Assembly: GCF_002563855.1 (NCBI RefSeq)
Contig: NZ_PDJQ01000001.1
Span: 1,240,001 to 1,304,000 of the forward strand
Direction: 5' to 3'
Origin: Tepidiforma thermophila
GTDB taxonomy: Bacteria > Chloroflexota > Dehalococcoidia > Tepidiformales > Tepidiformaceae
DNA length: 64,000 bases
Of the stretch, positions 38,501 to 43,526 are shown one piece after another (position 1 is the first letter of the stretch; each line of letters begins with the position of its first letter). Made by a program: the position numbers and the translations under genes. Under the pieces are notes generated by a model, which searched no databases, was not told the DNA's origin, and was given only the letters and a program-made list of their open reading frames with translations.

Positions 38501-39451
38501 GTGGAAGACCCAAGGATTGTCGCCGAGCGGATCATCGCCAACGTCGAAAAGGTCATCGTTGGCAAAACCCGCGAAATCCGCCTCGCCGTCACCGCACTCA
38601 TTTGCGGCGGCCACATGCTCATCGAAGACGTCCCCGGCGTCGGCAAAACCATGCTCGCCCGCGCTATCGCCGTCTCCACCGGCTGCACCTTCCGCCGCAT
38701 CCAGTTCACTCCCGACCTCCTCCCCTCCGACGTCACCGGCGTCTCCATCTACAACCAGAAAACCGGCGACTTCGAATTCCGCCCCGGCCCCATCCTCGCC
38801 CAGGTCGTCCTCGCCGACGAAGTTAACCGCGCCACCCCCAAGACCCAGTCCGCCCTCCTCGAAGCCATGGAAGAGCGGCAGGTCACCGTCGATGGCATCA
38901 CCTACCGCATGCCGCAGCCCTTCATGGTCCTCGCCACCCAGAACCCCATCGAATACGAAGGCACCTTCCCCCTCCCCGAGGCACAGCTCGACCGCTTCCT
39001 CATCCGCATGTTCCTCGGCTACCCCTCCCCCACCGACGAGGTCCTCGTCCTCGATAACCAGCAGACCCGCCACCCCATCGAAGCCCTCCAGCAGGTCACC
39101 GACGCCAACGAAATCCTCCAGCTCCAGCGTGCCGTCCGCGAAATCTACGTCGACCCGCTCATCAAGCAGTACATCGTCCAGCTCGCCAACGCCACCCGCG
39201 AGCACGAAGCCGTCTACCTCGGCGCCAGCCCCCGCGGCTCCCTCGCTCTCTTCCGCACCGCGCAGGCCAAGGCCCTTCTCGAAGGCCGCGATTTCGTCAT
39301 CCCCGATGACGTCAAAGACCTCGCCGTCTTCACCCTCGCCCACCGCGTCATTGTCAGCCCCGGCGCCAAGGTCAAGGGCGTCACCCAGGCCGACGTCATC
39401 GCCCAGTGCCTCCAGCGCGTCCCCGTCCCCGGGGCCCGCGCCCGCGCCTGA
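38501..39451 (+). CDS. MoxR family AAA+ ATPase
   Basis: The 316-residue AAA+ chaperone-like ATPase has Walker [10 protein letters not shown] (residues 42-50), Walker [11 protein letters not shown], sensor 1 in [12 protein letters not shown], and arginine-finger and sensor 2 regions in the C-terminal lid. MoxR proteins remodel or insert cofactors into partner proteins, usually ones with von Willebrand A-like folds encoded next door, here the DUF58 protein. Start is GTG 38501 behind CCGGAG. Confidence 0.93.
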
Positions 39452-39457
39452 CCCGCC

Positions 39458-40708
39458 ATGCGGCGCCCCCTCGCTGCCGTCCTCGCCCCCGAACGCCGGA
39501 CGCTCTCCCTCGTCCTCGCCATCCTGCTCGTCTGCGTTTTCGTCGCCTTCGCCACCGGCTTCTGGCTCCTCTTCCGCCTCGTCTACATCATCGCCATCGC
39601 CCTCCCCCTCGCCTGGCTCTTCACCTGGTGGAACACCCGGGGCCTCCAGGCCAACGTCGACCGGCGCACCTCCCGCGCCCAGGTCGGCCAGGAAGCCCTC
39701 GAGGTCATCGAGGTCCGCAACACCACCTTCCTCCCGAAGATCTGGCTCGAAGTCGAAGACCCCTCCGGTCTCCCCGGCCATCGCTCGCGTCGCATCCTCA
39801 ATATCCCGCCCCGCCGCTCCCGCAACTGGCTCGTCACGACGCCGCTCCTGCGCCGCGGCCTCTACGAATGGGGCCCCCTCACCGTCACCGCCGTCGACCC
39901 CTTCGGCATCTTCCGCCGAACCCGCACCTTCGGCGAAGCCCAGCAGATCCTCGTCTACCCGCCCGTGGTCGACCTCCCCCACTTCCAGGCCCCGCCGGCC
40001 AACCTCCCCGGCGAAGGCCGCTTCCGCCGCCGCACCCACTACATCACCCCCAACGCCGCCGGCGTCCGCGAATACGCCCCCGGCGACGCCTTCAACCGCA
40101 TCCACTGGCGCTCCACCGCCCGCACCGGCGAGCTCATGGTCAAAACCTTCGAACTCGACCCCGCCTCCGATATCTGGGTCATCCTCGACCTCGAACGCCG
40201 CGTCCACGTCGGGTCCGGCGACGACTCCACCGAAGAGTACGCCGTCCGCATCGCAGCCAGCGTCGCCCGCCACTACATCATCGCTAACCGCCCTGCCGGC
40301 CTCCTCCAGTTCGGCCGCGACCTCCGCATCCTCGAGCCCGAGCGCGGCCAAAACCAGCTCACCCGCATCCTCGAAACCCTCGCCACCGCCAGCGCCGTCG
40401 GCGATGCCCCCCTCGGCGCCCTCCTCCTCGAAGAACAGCGTCGCTTCGGCCGCCACACCACCCTCGTCATCGTCACCGCCGCAACCGATGACCACTGGCT
40501 CACCGCCATCCAGTCGCTGACCCAGCGCGGCGTCCGCGCTGCCGTCGTCCTCATCGACCCCTCCACCTTCGGCAGCGACCGCTCACCCCTCCTCCTCTAC
40601 GGGCAGCTCACCGCGTCCGATATCCTTACCTACGTCGTCCGCCGCGGCGACGACCTCTCCCTCGCGCTCGGCCCCGCCGGCGCAGGAGGTGGCGCATGGC
40701 AGGCCTGA
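39458..40708 (+). CDS. DUF58 domain membrane protein
   Basis: The 416-residue protein has two N-terminal membrane spans (about residues 16-60). A DUF58 domain then carries the signature GVREYAPGDAFNRIHWRSTARTGELMVKTFE. The C-terminal region has a degenerate von Willebrand A fold (WVILDLERR, LVIVTAATD). It is the standard partner of MoxR and transglutaminase-domain proteins in three-gene operons, whose role (assembly or maturation at the membrane) is not settled. Overlaps the next gene by 13 bases. Confidence 0.9.
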   Translation: MRRPLAAVLAPERRTLSLVLAILLVCVFVAFATGFWLLFRLVYIIAIALPLAWLFTWWNTRGLQANVDRRTSRAQVGQEALEVIEVRNTTFLPKIWLEVEDPSGLPGHRSRRILNIPPRRSRNWLVTTPLLRRGLYEWGPLTVTAVDPFGIFRRTRTFGEAQQILVYPPVVDLPHFQAPPANLPGEGRFRRRTHYITPNAAGVREYAPGDAFNRIHWRSTARTGELMVKTFELDPASDIWVILDLERRVHVGSGDDSTEEYAVRIAASVARHYIIANRPAGLLQFGRDLRILEPERGQNQLTRILETLATASAVGDAPLGALLLEEQRRFGRHTTLVIVTAATDDHWLTAIQSLTQRGVRAAVVLIDPSTFGSDRSPLLLYGQLTASDILTYVVRRGDDLSLALGPAGAGGGAWQA

Positions 40709-42981
40709 ACCCCTCCATCGAGCGGACCCCGGTCCGCACGGTCGGCTCGGTCGCGCTCAACCTCCCCCGCATCGTCATGAGCTGGGAGGACTGGCTCACC
40801 TTCGCCGTCGCCGTCATCACCTTCGTCGCCATCGCCCACTCCCTCGAACAGGCCAACTGGGTGGAGGGCATGCCCCCCTTCATCCCCACCGTCCTCCTCG
40901 GCCTCGCCATCGGCATGCTCTCCGCCCGGGCACGTCTCCATGCGCTCGCCATCCACCCCGTCGGCCTCGCCCTCGGCGCCGCCGTCGTCGTCCTCGTCGC
41001 CCAAACCTACGCCGATGGCCCCACCCTCGCCGACCGCCTCGCCGACTTCCGCGTCCGCATGGTCGAATGGTTCCACGTCGTCCGGGCCGGCGATATCAGC
41101 AACGACAACCTCCCCTTCGTCACCCTCGTCCAGGCCCTTGCCTGGCTCGCCGCCTACGCCGCCGCCTGGTGCCTCTTCCGCTGGCATAACGCCTGGCTCG
41201 CCCTCCTGCCCGGCGGTTTCATCCTCCTCACCAACATCTCCTTCCTCGATGGCCAGCCCACCGGCGACTTCGTCGTCTTCCTCTTCGGCGCCATCGTTCT
41301 CCTCTCCCGCGTCCACCTCCAGAAGCACCTCGCCCGCTGGCGCGCCGAGGGCATCGACTACCCCGAATTCATCTCCGTCAGCCTCATCCAGCTCACCGTT
41401 GTCGTCGCCGCTGCCCTCGTCGTCATCGCCTGGCAGCTCCCGCTCGGGAACCAGGCCCGCGCCGCCCAGTCCGCCTTCGAAACCCTCACACGGCCGTTCA
41501 CCTCCCAGTCCGACCACCTCCTCCGCCTCTTCCACAACATCGACTCGCGCCGCGGCACGAACCTCCACACCTTCGGCAACACCCTCCCCATCCAGGGCGA
41601 CGTCACCCTCGGAACCCGCCGCCTCTTCGAAGTCAACGCCGCCGAGCCCGGCCTCCTTCGCGCCACCAGCTACGAGGTCTACACCGGCGCCGGCTGGAAG
41701 GCCGGCCCGCGTGACTCCTCCCGTGTCGATGCCCGCGAACTCGCCGTCGACGCCCAGTCCGCAACCTACCAGGCCCGCACCGTCGCCATCCTCCGCGTCA
41801 AACTCCTCTCGTCCGAAAGCACCATCCTCACCCCCGGCGTCCCCCTCGCCGCCAATGTCGATACCCGCATCGATGCCGCCCCCGGCCAGGCCGGCGATAT
41901 TGAACGGATGCGCAGCCGTCGCGCCCTCGGGGCCGATGATACCTACAACAGCTTCGGCTCCATCTCCCGGGCGACCGCCGAGCAGCTCAACGCCGCCGGC
42001 ACCGCCTACCCCCAGTGGGTCACCGACCGCTACCTCCAGCTTCCGAACGACCTCCCCCAGTCAGTCCGCGACGAGGCACGCCGCATCATCGCCGAAGCCG
42101 GCGCGACGACCCCCTACCAGCAGGCCAAGGCCATCGAAGCCTACCTCCGCACCTTCCCCTATGACCTGGCCGTCCCGGCCCCGCCGCCGGGGCGCGACGC
42201 CGTCGAATTCCTCCTCTTCGACCTGAAACGCGGCTACTTCGACTACCAGGCCAGCGCCATGTGCGTCATGCTCCGGACCGTCGGCATCCCCTGCCGCGTC
42301 GCCGTCGGCTACGTCCTCACCCCCGGCACCGGCGAAGAAACCCTCTACACCGTCCGCAAGAGCGACGCCTACTCCTGGGTCGAAGTCTTCTTCCCCTCCT
42401 ACGGCTGGGTCGAATTCAATCCCACCTCCGACCGCCCCGAGGGCGGCGCCGGCGGCCTCAGCCAGCCCCTGGTCCCATCCGACCCCTTCGTCGAACCCTC
42501 CCTCGAAGACCTCTTCGGCCCCGACCTCGTCGACCCGACCGGCGGCGCCAATCCCGTCCAGGAAGCCCTCGCCGAAGACCCCATCCTCAACGACAGGTTT
42601 AACTGGATCCTCCTCATCCCCGTCCTCGCCCTGCTCGCCGTCCTCGCCGCTGGCGCCGTCGGCCTCCGCCTCGCCTGGAACTGGGGCCTCTCCGGGCTCG
42701 ACCAGCGCGCCCGCCTCTGGGCGCACACCCAGCGCCTCGCCGCCTGGGCCGGCCTCGGCGCCCGGGAGGCCGAAACCCCCCGCGAATGGTCCCGCCGCCT
42801 CGGCCGGGCCATCCAGCGCGAAGAGCCCGCCGAGCGCCTCAGCCAGGCCTACGAAGAATCCCGCTACGCCCGCCCCGGGCAGCAGCGCATCGCCGATGAC
42901 GAGGCTGCCGCCTCCTACCGCTCCCTCCGCAGTGCGCTCCTCGGCCGGCTCTTCGGCCGCAAAAACCGGCAGGCCCAATGA
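40696..42981 (+). CDS. TgpA-like membrane protein with a catalytically degenerate transglutaminase domain
   Basis: This 761-residue protein has about six N-terminal spans, an extracytoplasmic transglutaminase-fold region (about residues 380-600), one C-terminal span near 635-655 and a cytoplasmic DUF4129-like tail (RLSQAYEESRYARPGQ). Aligned with the family patterns FCEHYAS, DAHAW and DPT, the expected catalytic Cys, His and Asp are Phe515, Tyr559 and Asn575, so the triad is absent while the surrounding fold residues remain. A structural or binding role is likely. An AGGAGG ribosome site lies within the end of the DUF58 gene. Confidence 0.85.
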   Translation: MAGLNPSIERTPVRTVGSVALNLPRIVMSWEDWLTFAVAVITFVAIAHSLEQANWVEGMPPFIPTVLLGLAIGMLSARARLHALAIHPVGLALGAAVVVLVAQTYADGPTLADRLADFRVRMVEWFHVVRAGDISNDNLPFVTLVQALAWLAAYAAAWCLFRWHNAWLALLPGGFILLTNISFLDGQPTGDFVVFLFGAIVLLSRVHLQKHLARWRAEGIDYPEFISVSLIQLTVVVAAALVVIAWQLPLGNQARAAQSAFETLTRPFTSQSDHLLRLFHNIDSRRGTNLHTFGNTLPIQGDVTLGTRRLFEVNAAEPGLLRATSYEVYTGAGWKAGPRDSSRVDARELAVDAQSATYQARTVAILRVKLLSSESTILTPGVPLAANVDTRIDAAPGQAGDIERMRSRRALGADDTYNSFGSISRATAEQLNAAGTAYPQWVTDRYLQLPNDLPQSVRDEARRIIAEAGATTPYQQAKAIEAYLRTFPYDLAVPAPPPGRDAVEFLLFDLKRGYFDYQASAMCVMLRTVGIPCRVAVGYVLTPGTGEETLYTVRKSDAYSWVEVFFPSYGWVEFNPTSDRPEGGAGGLSQPLVPSDPFVEPSLEDLFGPDLVDPTGGANPVQEALAEDPILNDRFNWILLIPVLALLAVLAAGAVGLRLAWNWGLSGLDQRARLWAHTQRLAAWAGLGAREAETPREWSRRLGRAIQREEPAERLSQAYEESRYARPGQQRIADDEAAASYRSLRSALLGRLFGRKNRQAQ

Positions 42982-43526
42982 CCGTCCGCGCTCCCGCAAT
43001 CACTGCCAGCCTCCCGGCCGCTGTCATCGAAACCGACCTCGGCTGGGCAGGCATCGCGCTCGCCCCCGGCGGCATCCGCCACGCCACCCTCTTCCACCCC
43101 ACCCGCGATGCCGCCCTGGGCGAACTACGCGCCTTCGGCGGCCGCGAAGCCGACTCCGACGCCCTCCGCCAGGCCTGCGCCCGTCTTCTTGACTATGCAC
43201 GCGGCGACCTCGCCGCCCTCGCAGCCTTTCCCGTCGACCTGCCCCCGGAGCTCCCCATCGCCTCCCGGCGCGTCCTGCTCGCCCTCCGCGATATTCCCCC
43301 CGGCGAAACCCGGAGCTACGCGTGGCTCGCCGCCCGGGCCGGACTCGGGTCCGGGGCAGCCCGCGCCGCCGGCGCCATCATCGGCGCCAACCCCGCGCCC
43401 CTCTGGCTCCCCTGCCACCGCATCGTCGCCGCCGACGGCACCCTCCACGGCTTCGCCGGCGGCCTTGCCCTCAAGCGCCGCCTCCTCGAACACGAAGGCG
43501 CCCTCCCCCGCTCCCTCCTCCCCTGA
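42978..43526 (+). CDS. ogt: Methylated-DNA--protein-cysteine S-methyltransferase
   Basis: The 182-residue suicide enzyme removes O6-alkylguanine damage. The alkyl acceptor is Cys146 in LPCHRIVAADG, followed by the conserved GFAGGLALKRRLLEHEG. The recognition helix region SYAWLAARAGLGSGAARAAGAIIGANP is intact and the N-terminal ribonuclease-like domain is normal for length. It starts four bases inside the stop of the transglutaminase-domain gene (ATGA), an odd operon companion with no obvious functional link. Confidence 0.93.
   Translation: MTVRAPAITASLPAAVIETDLGWAGIALAPGGIRHATLFHPTRDAALGELRAFGGREADSDALRQACARLLDYARGDLAALAAFPVDLPPELPIASRRVLLALRDIPPGETRSYAWLAARAGLGSGAARAAGAIIGANPAPLWLPCHRIVAADGTLHGFAGGLALKRRLLEHEGALPRSLLP

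Follow-up and report, generated by a model that had tools for sequence, protein, structure and literature searches.

The moxR-DUF58-tgpA Locus of Tepidiforma

The window, that is, the entire 64,000-nucleotide stretch of the Tepidiforma thermophila genome that was analyzed, carries on its plus strand a moxR gene and a DUF58 gene, followed by a gene for a TgpA-like protein with a transglutaminase (TGc) domain and by an ogt-like gene (Table 1). The end of the DUF58 gene and the start of the transglutaminase gene share 13 bases, and the start of the ogt-like gene overlaps the transglutaminase stop codon (ATGA). The TgpA-like protein is laid out as a set of N-terminal helices, an extracytoplasmic TGc domain, a C-terminal helix (residues 641-663), and a DUF4129-like tail; in the AlphaFold2 model, helices are predicted at residues 30-247 and 641-663, corresponding to the membrane layout of TgpA-type proteins.

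Table 1. Features of the locus, with positions counted from the first letter of the window
Feature	Position	Strand	Basis
moxR, AAA+ ATPase (AAA_3 + AAA_lid_2)	38501..39451	+	Pfam, 219 bits
DUF58 protein gene	39458..40708	+	Pfam, 74.7 bits
TgpA-like pseudo-transglutaminase gene, 761 residues	40696..42981	+	Pfam, AlphaFold2 model, fold match to TgpA
Gly421 codon	41956..41958	+	59/59 in clade A; mostly Ser/Ala/Val in relatives
Transglut_core domain, residues 468-576	42097..42423	+	PF01841, 82.5 bits
Phe515 codon (TTC), catalytic Cys position	42238..42240	+	Alignment; start of catalytic helix in model
Tyr559 codon (TAC), catalytic His position	42370..42372	+	Alignment to TgpA
Asn575 codon (AAT), catalytic Asp/Glu position	42418..42420	+	Alignment to TgpA
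DUF4129-like C-terminal tail, residues 674-737	42715..42906	+	22.6 bits
ogt-like O6-alkylguanine-DNA methyltransferase gene	42978..43526	+	Pfam/NCBIfam

A search of the protein against all of Pfam-A with hmmscan (E ≤ 10) returned only PF01841, DUF4129, and a weak match to DUF3754. The PF01841 score is far above the curated cut-off of 23 bits and places the domain within the Transglut_core superfamily. The DUF4129 match falls just under its cut-off (24.8 bits), which the orthologues L036 and L038 exceed; TgpA_N (PF11992; cut-off 30 bits) gives no match in the window protein and scores of 28.1 and 23.6 bits in the orthologues L041 and L036, respectively.

All Three Catalytic Positions Are Replaced

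Both phmmer and profile alignments place Phe515, Tyr559, and Asn575 opposite the Cys, His, and Asp of Pseudomonas aeruginosa TgpA (PDB: 6g49), and the protein thus lacks the Cys-His-Asp/Glu triad of a catalytic transglutaminase. The first-pass annotation of this DNA had claimed that all three catalytic positions are replaced, and this is borne out by the codons and by the alignment to 6g49; its description of the third residue as the family Asp is right as to the position (575) but not quite as to the residue, which is Asp or Glu and in Chloroflexota relatives normally Glu (40/46 outgroup rows and 42/45 rows of group B, defined below).

The domain nevertheless keeps its fold, at least as modeled. 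An ectodomain-only AlphaFold2 model was poorer (pLDDT 57), and the full-length model was used instead; in it, the transglutaminase core has pLDDT values mostly of 82-94, with some loops lower, and Phe515 opens the catalytic helix, Tyr559 lies in a core strand, and Asn575 sits just past the next strand. The model matches the TgpA periplasmic domain with Z = 22.9 over 256 residues at 24% identity, well above the next families (TG3, Z = 8.3; factor XIII, Z about 8), in keeping with a papain-like transglutaminase fold.

The Triad Is Missing Throughout a Class-Deep Clade

We surveyed 393 genomes of the class Dehalococcoidia and 400 of the phylum Chloroflexota, retrieved 120 regions in addition to the loci returned by searches, recorded the triad residues of 150 different TgpA-type proteins, and built a tree of these 150 sequences over 696 columns from which the three triad columns had been excluded. 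The window protein belongs to a clade of 59 rows (clade A) that spans about 13 Dehalococcoidia family codes and has an SH-aLRT support of 100 in the 150-sequence tree and of 100/100 in a slower, reduced tree of 70 rows. Cys is absent from position 515, and His from position 559, in every member of clade A (59/59 rows). Position 515 is Phe in 50 of the 59 rows, position 559 is aromatic in 55 (Tyr in 38, Trp in 10, Phe in 7), and position 575 is Asn or Ser in 54 (46 and 8, respectively), such that the typical site reads F-[YWF]-[NS]. One genus (code g38; L153 and L154), whose long branch lies close to the base of the clade, carries a Tyr-Tyr-Asp variant of the dead site. Judged from these sequences, clade A is an old branch across the class, and its loss of the triad is ancient.

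The first-pass annotation had proposed a comparison with PF01841 and with Chloroflexota orthologues, and named orthologues retaining the triad, as a sign of a sequencing artefact, among the findings that would overturn its reading. The comparison gave both a clear domain match and replacements recurring across the families of clade A, and no triad-bearing orthologue was found in that clade. Because the replacements recur in many independent genomes, including every Tepidiforma relative, neither chance nor sequencing error accounts for them.

Over Dehalococcoidia as a whole, the site states are diverse (CHE, SHE, AHN, ALN, FYN, FWN, FFN, FFS, FYS, YYD, AFS, PYS, PLS, SLA, SES, and VMA); in the other Chloroflexota classes, Cys-His-Glu is found in nearly every TgpA-type protein read. 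The remaining Dehalococcoidia, 45 rows that we call group B, are monophyletic in the quick tree, though not strictly so in the slower one, and comprise 19 CHE, 23 SHE, 2 AHN, and 1 ALN proteins. The Phe codons of clade A (TTC/TTT) are one step from those of Cys (TGC/TGT), as are the AGC/AGT codons used for 21 of the 23 group B serines. The Cys/non-Cys state requires 10 changes over the whole tree, a count that gives no direction but implies that the site has been altered more than once.

No Alternative Cys Is Conserved

Active-site migration is known among papain-like enzymes (PMC10318531), and the window protein has one Cys on the catalytic helix (Cys523) and another just past it (Cys533), so we considered whether the domain might be catalytic through a shifted or different nucleophile, such as another Cys, or a Ser or Asp near the pocket. 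Cys523 and Cys533 are, however, each present in only 6 of the 59 clade A rows, and 53 of the 59 ectodomains are free of Cys altogether; the idea of an alternative Cys nucleophile was rejected on these grounds, Cys523 being an unlikely candidate. As no other Cys is conserved in clade A, no hidden triad is apparent there, and a triad elsewhere in the domain, the other finding that the first-pass annotation had held capable of refuting it, was sought within the clade and not found. Nor has any polar residue become newly fixed in the TGc core: Gly421 is the sole clade-A-specific fixed residue besides the triad positions. Catalysis by a relocated nucleophile is therefore, in our estimation, very unlikely.

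The Triad-Less Domain Remains Under Constraint

Ten fold residues of the domain (D501, L526, R527, P532, G538, W561, G570, W571, F574, and P576) are invariant in all 59 clade A rows, in agreement with the earlier remark that the flanking fold residues are well kept. Across four Tepidiforma pairs, the TGc domain has a dN/dS of 0.07-0.18, the lowest of all parts of the protein in each pair, and values in the other genera compared range from 0.05 to 0.34. At equal divergence of the N-terminal (membrane) part, TGc identity is 0.47 in clade A versus 0.51-0.55 in group B and the outgroup, meaning either that the loss of catalysis relaxed the domain slightly or that the membrane part is more constrained in clade A. 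The replaced columns, those now holding aromatic residues and Asn, vary less than the median, yet do not rank among the most conserved; this fits side chains that pack a filled pocket better than a new and strict function.

These data also bear on whether the gene is simply in decay, its domain function gone and its sequence drifting. The triad positions do vary inside the clade (FYN, FWN, FFS, PYS, VMA, SLA), and compared with its relatives the TGc domain shows mild relaxation, but the class-deep age of the clade, its open reading frames, the low TGc dN/dS, the retained operon, and the invariant fold residues all speak against drift, which we consider highly improbable. In the T. flava record (L042; NZ_CP115149.1), frameshifts strike moxR, DUF58, tgpA, ogt, and an MMPL gene alike; with the neighboring genes equally broken, they were rejected as evidence of gene decay and look like indel errors of the assembly.

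Operon Partners, Paralogues, and the Cell Wall

The order moxR, DUF58, transglutaminase on one strand is found in the window and in 41 of 41 sufficiently long clade A loci. The MoxR P-loop (G-x-G-K-[TS]) for nucleotide binding is retained in nearly all loci, and the view that the MoxR and DUF58 partners of the window are intact is upheld by their Pfam matches (Table 1). The DUF58 protein has D-[LM]-x-x-x in place of the DxSxS motif of a MIDAS metal site, as in nearly all Chloroflexota loci surveyed. Since DxSxS is absent from clade A, group B, and the outgroup alike, its absence characterizes the subfamily as such and is no part of the catalytic loss; co-degeneration of the DUF58 MIDAS is ruled out, the motif being equally missing beside Cys-His-Glu proteins. 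The transglutaminase gene is followed by an ogt-like gene in numerous loci of clade A and in several of group B, making a conserved MoxR-DUF58-TgpA-Ogt string for which there is no obvious reason.

Many pseudoenzymes act as competitors or regulators of an active relative, and further PF01841 domains are indeed present in 8 of 29 clade A genomes. In the other 21, including the Tepidiforma genome of the window (2.74 Mb, a single contig, 98.6% complete), the pseudo-transglutaminase is the sole PF01841 domain, which argues against a competitor of an active paralogue and makes a non-catalytic regulator of a second transglutaminase in the same cell unlikely.

A role at the cell wall has been proposed for TgpA (PMC3507681), and peptidoglycan genes have been lost in Dehalococcoidales and SAR202 (PMC10608941), so that catalysis might have been lost along with its envelope substrate, peptidoglycan. 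Most of group B lacks MurG, which agrees with the published cell-wall gene loss, but all 35 clade A genomes tested have it, that of the window included. The catalytic loss is accordingly no consequence of peptidoglycan loss, which was rejected as its cause for the pseudo-transglutaminase clade; moreover, lineages without MurG retain His-Glu, together with Cys or Ser. We regard loss of the substrate as an extremely unlikely explanation.

The 23 SHE relatives of group B, with Ser for Cys and with His and Glu kept, sit in genomes without a full MurG (their loci include L058, L062, L065, L075, L076, L080, L082, L158-L166, L172, L178, and L188-L190). The association of Ser-for-Cys with missing MurG comprises only two independent contrasts, too few to test for a statistical link.

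A Candidate Binding or Assembly Module

That catalysis has been lost in clade A is strongly supported: the triad is absent from all 59 rows, no alternative Cys is conserved, and the fold is under purifying selection. Within this branch, the function of the protein probably lies in neither cleavage nor cross-linking. The reading that we favor, and consider reasonably likely, is that a MoxR-DUF58 machine uses the pseudo-transglutaminase as a module for binding or assembly outside the cytoplasm. Of the earlier proposal of a scaffold or binding module instead of an enzyme, the loss of enzymatic function thus stands on firm ground, while the binding role is one that we infer and that is consistent with the conservation of the domain and the gene order.

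Sequence and fold show that, in the ancestor of one large Dehalococcoidia branch, the Cys-His-Glu site gave way to Phe, an aromatic residue, and Asn, with the fold retained. In the favored scheme, the TGc domain would most likely be a fixed platform for binding or assembly on the extracytoplasmic side of the membrane. The membrane helices and the cytosolic DUF4129-like tail would connect this platform to DUF58 and to the ATPase MoxR, a coupling suggested by the preservation of both ectodomain and gene order and by reports of MoxR proteins acting as chaperones (e.g., PMC3893208 and PMC9976466). By analogy with MoxR chaperones elsewhere, and given the gene order, the complex may be loaded, released, or remodeled by MoxR at the expense of ATP. 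If cells of this branch need binding or assembly rather than cross-linking, catalysis could have been lost for that reason.

More tentatively, the same may hold for MoxR-DUF58-TgpA systems at large: the task conserved in the TgpA ectodomain could be non-catalytic, that of a trans-envelope receptor or assembly platform for the MoxR chaperone, with the chemistry an optional addition that was dismantled repeatedly in Dehalococcoidia, completely in one class-deep clade and, on several occasions, through replacement of Cys by Ser. We regard this wider reading as possible rather than likely. A class-wide loss of the active site with retention of the system does suggest that at least one large lineage can dispense with catalysis, and clade A offers a clear-cut case for testing whether it is binding or chemistry that has been conserved.

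Comparison with Known Systems

The closest counterpart is TgpA itself (PA2873; PDB: 6g49/6g4h), with which the Tepidiforma protein shares the fold, the membrane architecture, the extracytoplasmic TGc domain, and the place as last of three genes (PA2875-PA2874-PA2873 in the TgpA transcription unit). TgpA is essential in P. aeruginosa and has transglutaminase activity in vitro (PMC3507681), and it retains Cys-His-Asp where the Tepidiforma protein has Phe-Tyr-Asn; the passages of that paper examined contain no test of a need for the Cys in the essential function, a question that clade A sharpens. Clusters of the MoxR proper (MRP) group likewise combine MoxR and DUF58, some of them with a transglutaminase-like gene, as in the PFNA cluster (PMC12067865); in the Tepidiforma cluster, by comparison, the transglutaminase-like component is predicted to be catalytically dead.

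RloB is also a membrane-anchored, periplasm-facing protein with a catalytically dead transglutaminase domain, and RloB-type mutant phenotypes are known (PMC12239564); the hm2192 product carries the same annotation (PMC12096838). The RloB-type operon, however, contains a retropepsin-like protease and an ATP-grasp protein, whereas the Tepidiforma neighbors are MoxR, DUF58, and Ogt, and with no Pfam model for the RloB-type 7TM inactive transglutaminase matched, assignment to that type is ruled out. The inactive transglutaminase domains of polymorphic toxins have similarly lost C, H, and D and have been proposed to act as anchors through peptide binding (PMC3482391), but they are N-terminal modules of RHS toxins, an architecture unlike that of the Tepidiforma protein. 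Erythrocyte protein 4.2 (EPB42), which is among the fold matches of the Tepidiforma model, has an inactive transglutaminase fold in a membrane-associated complex (PMC10318531), although it is eukaryotic, lies on the cytosolic face of the membrane, and belongs to an unrelated context.

Inactive bacterial transglutaminase domains are thus already known, in RloB (PMC12239564) and in the toxin anchors (PMC3482391). In the literature searched, no paper combines "Dehalococcoidia" and "transglutaminase"; as far as these searches reach, what is new is an inactive form within the MoxR-DUF58-TgpA system, its extent as a class-wide clade, and the related site losses beside it.
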